Of a stretch of 41,577 nucleotides of DNA, positions 35,120 through 41,577 are shown piece by piece. The stretch comes from Candidatus Poribacteria bacterium (GTDB taxonomy: Bacteria > Poribacteria > WGA-4E > JAJDTR01): the NCBI GenBank assembly GCA_028820655.1, contig JAPPIK010000044.1, positions 1-41,577 of the forward strand, written 5' to 3'. Within the stretch, counting starts at the first letter, position 1; the number at the start of each line of letters is the position of its first letter. The notes beneath the pieces were generated by a model that had not been told where the DNA came from, did not search any database, and saw only the letters and a list, made by a program, of their open reading frames with translations. The position numbers and the translations under genes are program-made.

Positions 35120-36190
35120 TCAACCTTTGGACCCTGACGAATTTGGAGCGACACCGAGCAATTGCGTAAACACTTCGTTCACTGGCTGTGCGTCGCCGAG
35201 GAAAGCCCAGACTTGGCTCCTGTCCTGATAGCTACACATTCCGGTACCATCGCCGATTGCCGGTGTATGATATTCCATTTCGCCGAACTCGCCCAGATCA
35301 CCGTTGTCGTTGTAACACTGGATCGCATAACCGAAGTCGTCCAGATCATCCCACGGGACATCCACGTACTCGGCTGAGGGTGCCACGAGGAAGTTGCGCA
35401 CGACCAGCGTCTTCTGCCCGTCTCCTATATTTCGCAGATATCCGATTCGTCCACTTGTGGTCGCGGCGCGCACACCGATTTTGTGGGAATGCTTCGCATC
35501 AACCGGGAATCGGATAGATTCAGGTGAGACGTAAAGATCGCTTGCGCCATCACCCCCGAAGTACGTTTTTGGCGCACTTTCTCTTACCGTGGGTATTACA
35601 ATCTCCCCTCCGGCAGGAACTTGGACCAAATTCCAGATTCCAAGACGAATTCCGGGTTCTTCCGCAGACACAAGCCGCAGTGACGTGAGTTGTTCATACC
35701 CAACAAATTGGAGTTGTCGATTGGGTGACGCCATGCTTCTCTCATAGCGCAAAGGGTTTTGCGCCATCCGAATTGTTTTAGACAACTCAATCTCGCTGGT
35801 TTTCTCTTGTCGATTCAGAATAACGCGCGCCCGATTGGTCAGCGTAACCTGTCCTTTGCCGTGCTGAACCGTGTAGTTGCCAGGATCCAATGATGAAGGC
35901 ACTTGATAAGTCTCGCCCGGATTCTCAATGTCGGAAATGAACAGTTCAACTTCGGGTGACACCCAAGTACGGTCTCCTCCGCTGTTCTTCCAGCCTTCTT
36001 TGGTGAAGAAGCTCTCGGCGGTGGTGACGTGATTAAGATCCGGGTTGACCCAGAAGAAATTATGTCCATCACGATTGTACAAGCCGAGCGTTCTCCCGCC
36101 GTGGGGAAGAATGAGCAGAGAGCCCCCCTTGCCAAACAGTTGGATAGGCGGGTGGCTCGCGGCAGTCAGAGACGCGATCAATTCATCCAT
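35120..36190 (-). CDS. mutarotase-like beta-sandwich protein, function unknown
   Basis: The 356-aa protein has no signal peptide and no catalytic motif I recognise. The N-terminal IQLFGKGGSLLILPHGGRTLGLY and the run of beta-strand-like segments resemble galactose-mutarotase-like carbohydrate-binding folds. Family members of this type occur in bacteria rich in sugar and osmolyte catabolism (I believe they are filed under a DUF, possibly DUF6786, from memory). A GAGAGG Shine-Dalgarno sequence lies just before the ATG. The gene follows the second PhyH gene by 128 bp on the same strand and probably belongs to the same operon, which suggests a carbohydrate-derived substrate. This is an inference. 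Confidence 0.75.
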   Translation of the reverse strand: MDELIASLTAASHPPIQLFGKGGSLLILPHGGRTLGLYNRDGHNFFWVNPDLNHVTTAESFFTKEGWKNSGGDRTWVSPEVELFISDIENPGETYQVPSSLDPGNYTVQHGKGQVTLTNRARVILNRQEKTSEIELSKTIRMAQNPLRYERSMASPNRQLQFVGYEQLTSLRLVSAEEPGIRLGIWNLVQVPAGGEIVIPTVRESAPKTYFGGDGASDLYVSPESIRFPVDAKHSHKIGVRAATTSGRIGYLRNIGDGQKTLVVRNFLVAPSAEYVDVPWDDLDDFGYAIQCYNDNGDLGEFGEMEYHTPAIGDGTGMCSYQDRSQVWAFLGDAQPVNEVFTQLLGVAPNSSGSKG

Positions 36191-36318
36191 TACTACCTCT
36201 CAAATTGGGAAGCCGCAATCCTCCGCCGTTGTCACCACCGATTCTCATCCGCGATTCACTCCCGGGAGAAATAGTGCCACAACTATTGTCTCATCCCTTG
36301 GTTTCGGGTGCGTATTAT

Positions 36319-37296
36319 TCATCCTATCATAGCATCCCGATACGGCGCCAGGTCAATGTCCGGATAGGCGTGTGCCAAACGTCCAAGCGCATCTTCGGTA
36401 TAGTAGGCATCGCCGGGCGCGGGCCAGCCCAACAGTTCACGGACACGGGGCGTAGTACCTGCTACGAATTTCACGTATTGCGGAGTCGACCAACCGGGGA
36501 TGGGGCGTGTGGTGTGACACCAATCGCCGTTGTCGGCGCGATGGAAATTGAATCCCATCCAACCTCGTTGTTTCTCCTTGTTGGCAAACGGTTGAGCCGC
36601 GTGAATAAGATAGCTGGATCGGAATGCGATGCTCCCGGCTTTGGCGGTGACGGGCACAGGATCAGCAAGTTCCTCGATCTCGCGAAGATCGTCCAAACCG
36701 AGTCCACCGGCACGCGCACCGCCACGACCAAACAGGGATTCCAGTTGTCTGTGCGATCCGGGACAAACCAACATTGGAGCACCATCCGGCTCAATATCGT
36801 GCAGTACAATTACGGACAGTACGTAGTTGTACCGCTCCCAATCCGGGTGAGGCGGCAATTGCGAGTTGGTGCCATTGTCAAGGTGGTAGCCTTGCCAAGG
36901 GTATTCGCTGTGCCGCGAATCGGTAAGTCCTTCGCGGAAGAAGATTTGACCGTAGCCCAAGCGAATTTCGCTCGTGCCTAGCACTTGACAGAGACAGTCA
37001 ATATAGTCCTCATTTTCAATCAGTCGGTCTACAGCATGCAGTCCGGTTGGAAAATGAACCGCCGCTCCCATCGGTCCTGCCAATCGCTGCATGTCAGAAG
37101 TCTCTTGATACATATCCCGGATGCTATCGGGATTCTCGCCCCATTTTGTGCGATACTCGGCGTAAGTCAATCCACCATAAGCGTTTCGTTCAACCGCCTC
37201 AAGCGCCGGCAAGTAGCTATCCGCCGGAAAGACATCGGGCACGATTAGACTTCCATCTCGCCTCCAAGTCTCTAGCTGTTCGTCAGTCAGTTTCAT
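36319..37296 (-). CDS. phytanoyl-CoA dioxygenase (PhyH) family protein, second
   Basis: This is a 325-aa Fe(II)/2-oxoglutarate dioxygenase. The triad fits H138-x-D140 (GYHLDNGTN) and H232 (SSYLIHAAQ), with R244 (KQRGWMGFNF) for 2-oxoglutarate. The protein is longer than the first PhyH and not closely related to it. GGAGG lies 8 nt before the ATG. It sits 64 bp downstream of the Ldh_2 dehydrogenase gene and 128 bp upstream of the mutarotase-like gene, all on one strand, so an oxidative pathway on a shared small substrate is likely. The substrate cannot be read from sequence. Confidence 0.9.
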   Translation of the reverse strand: MKLTDEQLETWRRDGSLIVPDVFPADSYLPALEAVERNAYGGLTYAEYRTKWGENPDSIRDMYQETSDMQRLAGPMGAAVHFPTGLHAVDRLIENEDYIDCLCQVLGTSEIRLGYGQIFFREGLTDSRHSEYPWQGYHLDNGTNSQLPPHPDWERYNYVLSVIVLHDIEPDGAPMLVCPGSHRQLESLFGRGGARAGGLGLDDLREIEELADPVPVTAKAGSIAFRSSYLIHAAQPFANKEKQRGWMGFNFHRADNGDWCHTTRPIPGWSTPQYVKFVAGTTPRVRELLGWPAPGDAYYTEDALGRLAHAYPDIDLAPYRDAMIG

Positions 37297-37360
37297 CAGG
37301 TTGTCCTCCTACCCACACGTGCCCCCAAAACTAACGCGATTACACAAAAGCGGAGTTAGC

Positions 37361-38338
37361 TCAATTCCAAGGCAGAGCCACATCGAAATACTCGTGAAGC
37401 GAATTCATGGCGTGCTGTTCCTGTTCGCCGAATCGAATCCCTTCTCTTCGGTGAAGCGCCGTCCGTTCTTCCTCAAGGTGTCCCGGCAACAACAGCCTGT
37501 CGGTGCCCGGTATCGGTTCACAGGTTTCGCGTAAGTCCCGGGTGTATCGATCCACTTCCGCTCGAAAAACCTCCCCTGCGACAGCTGCTTCAATATTGAT
37601 GGCGAGTACCATGCCGCCGAATCGCGCCGAGGGCCATTGCTCTTGGATGGCATCACCCTCGGGTCGTGAGAATCCGGTAAGTCCGCCGCCCAACAGGGAT
37701 GCAACTGTTATGAAACCCAGGTTTTTGAAGAATACCGCGGGAATCCGGCTAAACAGATCTTCGTATTCGGGTGCTTGATACGGCCCAAAAAGGTCCGATC
37801 CGCCGTCCAGCACTATATCCGGCTCATCGCCACCCGGAATCGCGAAACAGATGGGCGGGTTGCCTCTGGATTCGTTGCGGCCCGACTGTGCTGAAAAACC
37901 GATGCATCCGCCCTCCGCGCAGATACGGGCATAATGGCCTGCCGAACCGTAATGCCCGATGTGAGGCACCAGCGCCAATCCGACATTGTGCTCGCTTGCG
38001 TGTACGACCGCGCTCTCCGCTGCGCGGACCATGGGCAGATAGCCGAGCGTGCCGTCTCCGTCAATGACCGTTGAGGCGCCACTTTCCTTCAACGTTCTCA
38101 CATTCGGACGCGGATTCAGGTTGCCGTTCACAAAGTCCATACAGTAGTTGTGGGCAATGTGAGTGCCATGGGACCGCACGCCGCGCAGATCGTTGTTGAC
38201 CAGCAGCCGGCTGATGAGACGAGCGTGTGGAGATTCGAGTCCCGCCATTTCAAAGCAGTTTGTTACGAAAGCCAAGAGCCGGCTTTCGTGAACGAGGATG
38301 TATTTTTTGGGCGGGACGTTCACGATGTCATCTATCAC
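37361..38338 (-). CDS. Ldh_2 (malate/L-lactate dehydrogenase-like) family oxidoreductase
   Basis: The 325-aa protein belongs to the NAD(P)-dependent Ldh_2 family (YlbC/ComC/2,3-diketo-L-gulonate-reductase type), unrelated to classical malate dehydrogenases. Landmarks are NDLRGVRSHGTH with the catalytic His, VIDGDGTLGYLPMVRA, the nucleotide-pocket HYGSAGHYARICAEGGCIGF and the late SLLGGGLTG. The family reduces 2-keto acids or oxidises 2-hydroxy acids; the exact substrate is unknown. The start is a GTG with no Shine-Dalgarno sequence; another in-frame GTG lies 15 bp downstream. It is first in the dehydrogenase-PhyH-mutarotase-like gene set behind a recognisable promoter. Confidence 0.88.
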   Translation of the reverse strand: MIDDIVNVPPKKYILVHESRLLAFVTNCFEMAGLESPHARLISRLLVNNDLRGVRSHGTHIAHNYCMDFVNGNLNPRPNVRTLKESGASTVIDGDGTLGYLPMVRAAESAVVHASEHNVGLALVPHIGHYGSAGHYARICAEGGCIGFSAQSGRNESRGNPPICFAIPGGDEPDIVLDGGSDLFGPYQAPEYEDLFSRIPAVFFKNLGFITVASLLGGGLTGFSRPEGDAIQEQWPSARFGGMVLAINIEAAVAGEVFRAEVDRYTRDLRETCEPIPGTDRLLLPGHLEEERTALHRREGIRFGEQEQHAMNSLHEYFDVALPWN

Positions 38339-38519: not shown

Positions 38520-39578
38520 TTACAGCGATGTACGCGGGACATTGATGCGGGCCGTTATCTTCTCAGCAAGCACCTTGAAGTCCTTGTATGCATCGCTCGC
38601 AGCGGCGGCATGGGAACCGATAGCCCCATCCGCCGGAGTAAGATGAAAGATAGGCTTTCTGGCTTTTTGCGCCATCGGGACTAGGCTTCGGTAATGTTTA
38701 ACGGTGGCTAGTGCATGTAGTTCATCATCAGCAGGAGTTTCAGCGTAAGGTCCTTCGTTATCGCCTAAAAGATTGCGCGCATATTCCGCCGGCATGCGAT
38801 TGACCCACTTGTCGTAAGCTATCACCGGACGATTTAAGCGGATCCCATGTTGTTGCATTATATAGCCAGCAGGTTTCATGTCCCCGTTTGGCAGAGCAAA
38901 TTCTGGCGAGGACCAGTTCCCTCTCCTACTCCTCCAGTCTCGACGCCAGCGGTTAAGTGTGGGGCCAAGGTTGCGTAAGCCCCGAAGAGAAAACAAATCC
39001 GCTCCTAGTGGAACGACGACGTAATCGATCGCAATTAGAGCCGAACGATTTATAGCGCCTAGATTTGGGCCAACATCTGCCAATATTATTGAAGCTGTCA
39101 TCGTCGATGCCCCTGCTTGCATTATGGTTGAAAACGCAGTCAATATTCTGAAAGGGCGGTACAGATTGCTAGATCCCAATGCAATTGGCCACTCAGCAGA
39201 CAGAGTGTCCTCAAATTCCGCCAACGCTAGGTCACCGGGAATCAATTTGAGGTCATTTGGTCCAGTATCTCCTCCAAATAGACTTGGTTGGGCTATGATT
39301 GGCTGAAGGCGCGGTGGCTTCAAGTCGGCAACTTGCATCAGCGGTTTTACACACTCAAAAATAGTGATTCCCGATTTAGGGGAAACGTCCCCCTCGTTCC
39401 AGAGATTCTCCAAACGACTTTCGTCCAGAAACACAGCGGTAAGGTTCGCCTGCGGATCAAGGTCACAGGCCAAAACTCGATGGCCTAAATCAGAAAGCAT
39501 CCACGCTAAATGATAGACGAGCGAGGTTTTGCCAACGCCGCCTTTATTGTTGAAGAATGTCAGGACTGGGATAGACAT
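38520..39578 (-). CDS. ParA-like P-loop ATPase
   Basis: This is a 352-aa deviant Walker-A ATPase of the ParA/MinD class. KGGVGKTSLVYHLA at residues 12-25 carries the signature lysine, CDLDPQANLT follows, and ADVGPNLGAINRSAL is the Walker B region (Gly-Pro where many have a Pro). A middle insertion (about 70-135) and a Trp/Arg-rich segment (about 225-245) are not in plasmid ParAs. There is no ParB or centromere-like array beside it. It starts 2 nt after the stop of the AlbA_2/HATPase gene, so they are one unit. This looks like an accessory, possibly defence or regulatory, ATPase rather than a chromosome partition protein. Confidence 0.88.
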   Translation of the reverse strand: MSIPVLTFFNNKGGVGKTSLVYHLAWMLSDLGHRVLACDLDPQANLTAVFLDESRLENLWNEGDVSPKSGITIFECVKPLMQVADLKPPRLQPIIAQPSLFGGDTGPNDLKLIPGDLALAEFEDTLSAEWPIALGSSNLYRPFRILTAFSTIMQAGASTMTASIILADVGPNLGAINRSALIAIDYVVVPLGADLFSLRGLRNLGPTLNRWRRDWRSRRGNWSSPEFALPNGDMKPAGYIMQQHGIRLNRPVIAYDKWVNRMPAEYARNLLGDNEGPYAETPADDELHALATVKHYRSLVPMAQKARKPIFHLTPADGAIGSHAAAASDAYKDFKVLAEKITARINVPRTSL

Positions 39579-39580
39579 TG

Positions 39581-40339
39581 TTATGGAGTCTCAGGGGCAA
39601 TGGCAGACTTAATCGTTACCTGAACGTGCGTATCGGTAACTGCAAATTCCGGGGTTGGGTGGCAGGCTTCTGTTAGCAGTCTCTTGGCCGTCGGTATTCC
39701 TACGCCGAAACGCTGCACATACCCGTGAGTTCGCATTGCTTCCGCAAGAGTAGGGTTGCGGTAATCGGTTAGCCCAGGTTGACCGAAATTTCCAGCGGTC
39801 ACGGTACCGTATGCGCCGCCAGGGCTTAACACCTCAATTCGGTCGTTGAACCAAGAAACGCGGACGGGGGCGTTTGTTGACTCGTAGGTTCTGTGCATAA
39901 TTGCATTACGTATAATCTGTTGTAATGCAGGAATGGGATAGAGTTCGGTTCGGCGCTCCAGAGCGTCCGTCGTGAAATCGACCGCGATTCGGTTGTGCGC
40001 AACCAGTTTTTCATCCAATCGGCGGAGCACGTCAGGAACTGCTCCGCCTATGTCTTCACTGTCAATGATTACGTCAGACAGTTTGCTGCCGTTAATTCTT
40101 AGGAACTGTACATAAGCCCCCGGTAGATAGTCTTGCGGACATTTGCCGAGAACTAGAATGCCCAATACAGTTGCAATACGCTCAGTAGCTGATACAGTCA
40201 TTTTAGTAGCAGCTAGACGTTCTTCGAGAGTTCGTTCATTGGCTGCCAGAATCTCGGGGACAAATGCCTGAGGCAAGTATTCGTTCTCAAATTGGGTAAG
40301 ATTGAGATCAGACACATTAGACGTAGGGATAGGTTGCAC
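39581..40339 (-). CDS. C-terminal fragment of AlbA_2/HATPase gene (HATPase_c_4 domain)
   Basis: Downstream of the internal stop the frame stays open for 252 codons from a GTG. It contains a GHKL-type ATP-binding region of the HATPase_c_4 kind: QQIIRNAIMHRTYES has the family's N-box Asn, and FNDRIEVLSPGG and RFGVGIPTAKRLLTEA carry the later glycine-rich motifs. The first residues, QPIPTSNVSDL, continue the family sequence directly after the preceding fragment. It could only be made separately by internal initiation or stop readthrough, and no Shine-Dalgarno sequence precedes the GTG. Confidence 0.7.
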   Translation of the reverse strand: MQPIPTSNVSDLNLTQFENEYLPQAFVPEILAANERTLEERLAATKMTVSATERIATVLGILVLGKCPQDYLPGAYVQFLRINGSKLSDVIIDSEDIGGAVPDVLRRLDEKLVAHNRIAVDFTTDALERRTELYPIPALQQIIRNAIMHRTYESTNAPVRVSWFNDRIEVLSPGGAYGTVTAGNFGQPGLTDYRNPTLAEAMRTHGYVQRFGVGIPTAKRLLTEACHPTPEFAVTDTHVQVTIKSAIAPETP

Positions 40340-40366
40340 GTCGAAAGTCAGATTTCCGGATCGACG

Positions 40367-40804
40367 TTATTCGTTTAGAATCCTTTCATCTTGTTCGGTG
40401 GCAATGCTCCGGCGCGAACCAATACGAATGTGGACAACACCTTTGAATCTCACCGGAGGCGAATCGGACGGTTGTACGGTTACTACGGCGACTTCCTTAC
40501 CGTCCAAGACGCGCTTTTCAACTGCCAGCGTTGGCGGCGGCAGGATGTTTCCATCGGTTTTCATATCTGCCAACTGTCTAAGTAACTCGTCCGTGACGGT
40601 TGAATCGGCGATGGTTCGGTTGTTCCGTACCCCTACAAAGACATAGCCCGGTTTTTCGTGTCGGGGAAGGTCGTTGGCAAATGCGCAGATAGCGTCCCGT
40701 ATTCTCGCGGATGCATCACCCGACAATGACTCTTTGAACTCGGCGCGGTCGGATTCGATGTCCGAGATGATTTCAAGCAACTCCTTGTCAGTAGGAGATG
40801 GCAT
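40367..40804 (-). CDS. N-terminal fragment of AlbA_2/HATPase gene (AlbA_2 domain)
   Basis: This 145-aa frame holds an AlbA_2 (Schlafen-type, putative nucleic-acid- or nucleotide-binding) domain. ESDRAEFKESLSGD is the start, DAICAFANDLPRH and GYVFVGVRNNRTI the core, and HIRIGSRRSIATEQDERILNE the typical end. It stops at TAA, directly where family members continue into the ATPase domain. It might function alone if AlbA_2 is enough. The ATG has no strong Shine-Dalgarno sequence. The gene sits about 190 nt behind a promoter with an operator-like palindrome. Confidence 0.75.
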   Translation of the reverse strand: MPSPTDKELLEIISDIESDRAEFKESLSGDASARIRDAICAFANDLPRHEKPGYVFVGVRNNRTIADSTVTDELLRQLADMKTDGNILPPPTLAVEKRVLDGKEVAVVTVQPSDSPPVRFKGVVHIRIGSRRSIATEQDERILNE

Positions 40805-40975
40805 TTTTTATTCCAGGTCGATTTGGTAATTTGCTCAGTTAAGGAACTGTAGTCACCACACCAATTTTACAGATGTTTCAGCGCCCAGCACTAAGAATGG
40901 ACAGCTAACCGTTCCATTTCCAATTCTCTATCGGCATCGGTTGTTAACTTTGTTATTTGCACTGAATTTGACCGC

Positions 40976-40992
40976 CATTCTTTGAAAGAATG
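40976..40992. promoter_or_regulatory. 17-bp operator-like palindrome
   Basis: CATTCTTT-G-AAAGAATG is a perfect 8+1+8 inverted repeat. It lies directly after the -10 of the promoter at 41001-41029, covering about +2 to +18 of the AlbA_2/ParA transcript, where a repressor would block initiation or elongation. The AlbA_2 protein or another dimeric regulator could bind it. It has no T-run and is too close to the start to be a terminator. Confidence 0.5.
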
Positions 40993-41000
40993 CACTAGTA

Positions 41001-41029
41001 GGTATAAACCACGCATTGGGATTTGTCAA
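41001..41029 (-). promoter_or_regulatory. promoter of the AlbA_2/ParA unit
   Basis: On the minus strand, a perfect TTGACA (41029-41024) is 17 bp from TATACC (41006-41001). Predicted transcription start is near 40994, about 190 nt before the AlbA_2 ATG. The -10 has a weak last position, consistent with a controlled promoter. Confidence 0.5.
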
Positions 41030-41247
41030 GAGTGATATGTGAAGAGTCTAGAATAGTTGCCGGATTATTCAGCGCAGTCAAGAACAGCCACTCATCTTCC
41101 CCATAATAGACTTGTGTAATCTCGAATTTTCACATACCCGATCTTGGGCGTATCTCCACGAACGAGCAAAAATCACCGAGACACTACCGTGATTCCGATT
41201 GATTGACCGATTTTGCCCTTCAATCATCAGTTTCTATTGACATGGCG
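41030..41247. other. gene-free spacer before the tandem repeats
   Basis: No open frame or RNA gene is recognised. A TTGACA at 41237-41242 lacks a -10 partner. The tandem repeats begin immediately afterwards. Confidence 0.4.
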
Positions 41248-41577
41248 CTCCGCCGGAGCGGGGAATCGCGATTTGGAAATCGCTTCCACAGATTGAAAGG
41301 TTGGTGCGCGGGGGATTAATCGCGCCCGTTATTCAGTCGGTTGGTCGATGTTTATCTCACGTTTGAAATCACATTCCACTCCGCCGGAGCGGGGGAATCG
41401 CGATTTGGAAATCGCTCCCACAGATTGAAAGGTTGGTGCGCGGGGGATTAATCGCGGCCGTTATTCAGTCGGTGGATCGATGTTTATCTCACGTTTGAAA
41501 TCACATTGCACTCCGCCGGAGCGGGGAATCGCGATTTGGAAATCGCTCCCACAGATTGAAAGGTTGGTGCGCGGGGG
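41248..41577. repeat. tandem array of 131-132 bp palindromic units
   Basis: Units begin at 41248, 41379 and 41511, so periods are 131 and 132 bp; the last unit is cut by the window end after 67 bp. The period difference is one extra G in unit 2 (GCGGGGG against GCGGGG). Each unit opens with a CTCC-GCC-GGAG hairpin, then a perfect GCGATTT-GG-AAATCGC hairpin, then a long non-palindromic part. Units are near-identical, with single-base differences such as CGCGCCCG against CGCGGCCG. The one-base length change rules out a coding repeat in a fixed frame. Confidence 0.85.

Follow-up and report, generated by a model that had tools for sequence, protein, structure and literature searches.

Does a lone in-frame stop codon within a conserved two-domain gene of a Candidatus Poribacteria bacterium mark a gene that has recently been lost, a protein made as two separate chains, a codon that is read through, or simply a flaw in the assembled sequence? 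The gene in question pairs an AlbA_2 domain with an ATPase domain and was found in a stretch of 41,577 nucleotides (positions 1 to 41,577 of contig JAPPIK010000044.1), referred to here as the window. The source genome is a metagenome-assembled genome (MAG) of 5.88 Mb in 61 contigs, obtained from a sponge symbiont.

Organization of the interrupted gene

The first-pass annotation described a single TAA in an otherwise intact AlbA_2-ATPase gene and gave no strand. This description proves correct for the minus strand, on which the gene runs from 40804 to 39581 over 407 codons; the plus strand of 39581-40804 contains many stops. The only internal stop in the gene frame is the TAA of codon 146 (40369-40367, minus strand). 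The N-terminal half (40367-40804, minus strand) encodes 145 amino acids from an ATG at 40804, and the C-terminal half (39581-40339, minus strand) is open over 252 amino acids from a GTG at 40339 to the terminal TAA at 39583-39581. Both halves lie in the same frame and are separated by nine codons (40366-40340, minus strand) extending from the stop to the first downstream in-frame start, as had been proposed. The SLFN_AlbA_2 domain (PF04326) is complete in the N-terminal half, where it covers residues 17-132 (about 40756-40409) with a score of 63.8 bits for a Pfam cut-off of 25.3, and the GHKL-type HATPase_c_4 domain (PF13749) falls entirely in the C-terminal half (about 39871-39611; 60.5 bits for a cut-off of 26). 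Residues E17, E22, K24 and D45, near-invariant among orthologs, are present in the window copy; residues of this kind we take to be catalytic in Schlafens. Placed end to end, the two halves align with single orthologous chains of 399-413 amino acids (one of 510), so that their join is not due to chance. An AlbA_2-HATPase protein in one uninterrupted chain is encoded at 115 other full-length loci, 91 of them distinct; the window copy is broken by its TAA. A ParA-like ATPase gene (AAA_31; 38520-39578, minus strand) begins 2 nt past the terminal TAA, and its frame is open over 352 amino acids, in agreement with the earlier view that ParA is intact.

The intact protein of the closest relative, a genome of the same genus (G001, 88% amino acid identity), was modelled from a 42-sequence alignment with a mean pLDDT of 86.6. 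In this model, codon 146 is predicted to lie within a helix spanning residues 137-149, after the AlbA_2 domain and before a linker. Foldseek searches with the model aligned 3lmm to the full-length chain (E 1e-19, 18% identity) and also retrieved the Schlafen N domains of SLFN11 and SLFN14 (E from 2e-4 to 7e-4) and, more weakly, GHKL kinases (E of about 1e-3 or higher); a profile match to 3lmm was also obtained (E 1e-10). The window gene carries both Pfam domains in the same order as the SLFN_AlbA_2 and HATPase_c_4 proteins, previously labelled COG2865, of which 3lmm (DIP2311) is a solved example, but differs from the latter in being interrupted between the domains. A published survey reports that Schlafen RNases joined to a minimal histidine kinase occur near BREX loci, and presents tRNA cleavage as a possible mode of action of Schlafen-linked systems (PMC12839542). 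A Schlafen-fold N domain and a GHKL-type C domain are likewise combined here, whereas the gene that regularly adjoins this one encodes a ParA-like ATPase and no defence-family match was found in 10 proteins scanned with PADLOC. The AlbA_2/Schlafen-fold domain is probably an RNase.

A defence island was considered and rejected after these PADLOC scans, which covered nine neighbouring ORFs from four loci together with a divergently oriented neighbour that we call gene X. The AlbA_2 gene itself gave weak PADLOC matches to pAgo-linked models and to PDC-S50, and ParA a weak match to PDC-M28B. Relatives in 117 plasmid and 25 phage records are all distant, with less than 60% identity. Gene X (519 amino acids; L129 9560-11119, corresponding to C54 47559-49118; L049 2-1297) matches nothing in Pfam, PHROGs or PADLOC. 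It is present only in the source and G001 loci among those compared and is thus not a conserved third partner. Between the AlbA_2 gene and gene X, the source contig carries a stretch of about 6.2 kb (C54 about 41091-47282; L129 3092-9283), whose left end corresponds to window positions 41091-41577. It contains phage-like genes for the large and small terminase subunits (PHROGs) as well as repeat arrays, and is absent from G001. On either side of this stretch lies one copy of a 141-bp direct repeat; the two copies (C54 40950-41090 and 47283-47423) are 76.6% identical, and G001 has a single one. Near-identical dispersed repeats containing CTCCGCCGGAGCGGGG occur both near the insert and in other parts of the contig (window 41230-41577; L129 3241-3868, 8119-9286 and 13299-13459).

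Distribution and age of the stop codon

Comparison with homologues, suggested by the first-pass annotation, gave a sense codon at the site throughout. Among the 91 other full-length orthologs remaining once identical copies were removed, the counterpart of codon 146 is Lys in 81, Arg in 10 and a stop in none. The same two residues occupy the site in 37 other loci from the same order and class (Lys 35, Arg 2) and, across many phyla, in 80 public loci (Lys 71, Arg 9). G001 carries AAA at this position, one base away from TAA, which bears out the single substitution previously put forward as a cause. The only other striking change in the window copy is the Thr of codon 153, within the nine-codon spacer, where 90 of the 91 other orthologs have Pro. 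Overall, of 141 conserved columns, the source sequence deviates at 5, which places it in the middle of the range among 92 sequences. Not one of the 91 other distinct orthologs is naturally split at codon 146, and truncated relatives mostly lack the N-terminal half rather than being divided at this codon. Several candidates for recurrent stops were discarded: apparent internal stops in five genomes (G025, G040, G059, G062 and G068) resolved into open frames of 401 amino acids, and an internal TGA in G002 lies outside its aligned piece, this copy being cut by contig ends and left unclassified.

The G001 locus, besides being intact, is syntenic with the window on both sides, with 83.4% nucleotide identity over 39420-41090 and 80.6% over 35588-38322; this sister-genome comparison indicates that the stop is derived in the lineage of the source genome. 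The dN/dS ratio between the two copies is 0.117 (0.089 for the N-terminal half and 0.126 for the C-terminal half), implying that the gene was constrained until recently. Polarised changes, expressed as amino-acid-changing to silent, amount to 27:36 on the source branch and 10:20 on the G001 branch (Fisher p = 0.50), the 27 including the stop and a few doubled codons. A simulation run with 25 of these changes makes an unconstrained phase longer than about 30% of the branch unlikely. From these counts and the simulation, the stop is young, or not real. The C-terminal half shows more amino-acid-changing changes (18:18) than the N-terminal half (7:18), an excess that is not significant (Fisher p = 0.11), and decay beyond the stop is not visible since both halves are still open.

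We consider that the window carries a recent pseudogene created by one nonsense substitution at codon 146, in the Poribacteria version of a two-domain protein that is widespread and whose gene usually sits immediately before that of a ParA-like ATPase, and assign to this reading a probability of roughly 0.7. The stop is derived, absent from relatives and located upstream of a conserved domain. Translation would end after 145 amino acids, yielding an AlbA_2 domain that has neither the final turn of its C-terminal helix nor the ATPase half; because of these two losses, the protein would no longer work as a unit. Such a truncated product would retain the putative nuclease domain, and its function would presumably be abolished. 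The locus resembles an ordinary bacterial nonsense pseudogene in that the single derived stop is young and the closest relative intact; the only difference is that the stop falls at a domain boundary. The whole looks like gene erosion of an ordinary kind; nothing about it suggests a novel mode of gene decoding.

Competing explanations

The most serious competitor of the nonsense pseudogene, although a clearly less probable one, is that the stop arose in assembly or base calling, or that a minority strain variant became fixed in the consensus of the MAG, most cells having an intact gene. The proximity of the codon to that of the closest relative, a single base apart, would be expected in this case too, as would the openness and conservation of both halves; moreover, the host genomes of the nearest relatives are MAGs, and the source assembly is itself divided into many contigs. 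On the other hand, in-frame stops are rare in this assembly: none was found in 59 ABC_tran or 74 GFO_IDH_MocA genes, and PhyH showed two among the matches listed, of 152. This rarity argues against a pervasive process of error or decay, and dates nothing for codon 146. The Thr of codon 153, a second unusual change located downstream of the stop, is slightly better accommodated by relaxed constraint than by error.

The pseudogene reading is further supported by the frequent loss of this gene across the phylum: different lesions affect it in six other Poribacteria, and one more shows a clean loss beside an intact ParA. In G011, residues from about 46 to 127 are gone with a change of frame; in G058, the same is true of residues from about 25 to 146. 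The first residues are fused in frame to about residue 153 in G036, and nothing precedes residue 154 in G023. G038 has kept residues 1-55 and those from 315 onward, and G034 begins near residue 138 and is missing about 240-313. A close ParA accompanies none of these six copies. The available portion of a paper on sponge symbionts yielded nothing on pseudogenes in Poribacteria.

These lesions lend themselves to another interpretation, which we regard as improbable: Poribacteria would be dismantling the gene at the boundary between its domains. The nuclease-like AlbA_2 half would be repeatedly lost or unlinked, by the TAA here and by deletions in G011, G023, G036 and G058, and the GHKL-ATPase half, kept open and conserved, would serve an independent function, in this genome as a second chain initiated at GTG 40339. 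A slightly less probable version, confined to this locus, holds that the AlbA_2 and ATPase halves work as two chains, the second produced by reinitiation at the same GTG, 27 nt past the stop. The modelled position of the stop in the 137-149 helix, just ahead of the linker, fits such a split. So does the GTG at codon 156, whose predicted pairing with a generic anti-Shine-Dalgarno (SD) sequence (-3.5 kcal/mol) resembles that of the genes of the window (median -2.9); random 25-mers, however, pair nearly as well (median -2.2 kcal/mol), and many genes of the window have weak SD sequences, so that this test of reinitiation is not informative. A start-like codon at 156 is also found in seven other orthologs, which are unsplit. 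Codons 146-156 display four amino acid differences from G001, but as many occur in 27 of 393 eleven-codon windows, and relaxation of the spacer was accordingly rejected. In the four relatives whose AlbA_2 half is all or mostly deleted, the C-terminal half is open, with dN/dS values against near relatives of 0.04-0.09 where estimable, similar to those of intact pairs. These open halves are equally explained by recent lesions, an explanation that we favour over a separate use of the C-terminal half because old pseudogenes tend to vanish. The suggestion that AlbA_2 and ATPase act as separate chains, and the related possibility that homologues are naturally two proteins at this point, find no echo among the 91 other orthologs, where the site is never a stop.

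Programmed readthrough (readthrough being a further proposal of the first-pass annotation) or a suppressor tRNA restoring the full chain would account for the conserved open frame on both sides of the lone TAA, but is rejected as highly improbable since all 91 other distinct orthologs have a sense codon at the site and ARAGORN, applied where 42 tRNA matches lie, called no tRNA with a UUA anticodon (it made no call for one match located at the end of a contig, and a first look scored 150 of 236 candidates); TAA is besides an ordinary stop here, ending 8 of the 24 ORFs of the window.

The ParA-like neighbour

The AlbA_2 gene had been presented as the upstream partner of ParA. As regards gene order this stands: a ParA-like gene lies directly downstream on the same strand in the window, and 64 of 80 public loci also have one directly downstream, 37 of these 64 showing a 4-base overlap. 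The overlap makes translational coupling the usual, though not obligatory, arrangement. The idea of a fixed partnership fares less well. Among 34 other genomes of the Poribacteria class with a full-length ortholog, 15 have a close ParA and 19 have none genome-wide, the ParA-less copies occupying three places on the tree with 16, 2 and 1 genomes. Conversely, G010, which is syntenic with G014, has at the corresponding place an intact ParA of 336 amino acids (L135 3644-4654; 87.8% nucleotide identity to G014) and no AlbA_2 gene. The part of the literature available to us contained no description of a pair formed by an AlbA_2-HATPase protein and ParA.

Two further observations concern ParA. Its gene in the window is mosaic: the ends align at the nucleotide level with the syntenic ParA of the same genus (L049), and the middle (38832-39419, residues about 50-250) does not. 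The central part is of the G007 type in the source genome (80% amino acid identity) and of another type in G001 (62% to the source), and looks as if it had been swapped by recombination. In addition, distant relatives of AlbA_2 and ParA (about 28-30% identity each) are separated by no more than a few kb in G028:C68, G071:C97 and G049:C1 near 5901040-5903985; their proximity may reflect a second, older version of the pairing.

If codon 146 is indeed a nonsense mutation, the ParA gene, which translation coming from upstream would normally reach across the old stop, is probably still expressed, at a lower level. The allele, if real, would represent a natural loss of function of the AlbA_2 protein next to a ParA that is intact, and the source genome could therefore not be included among those with a working pair. 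Considered along with G010 and the 19 ParA-less Poribacteria, it suggests that there is no strict dependence of either gene on its neighbour, and this speaks against viewing the two as a simple toxin-antitoxin system.
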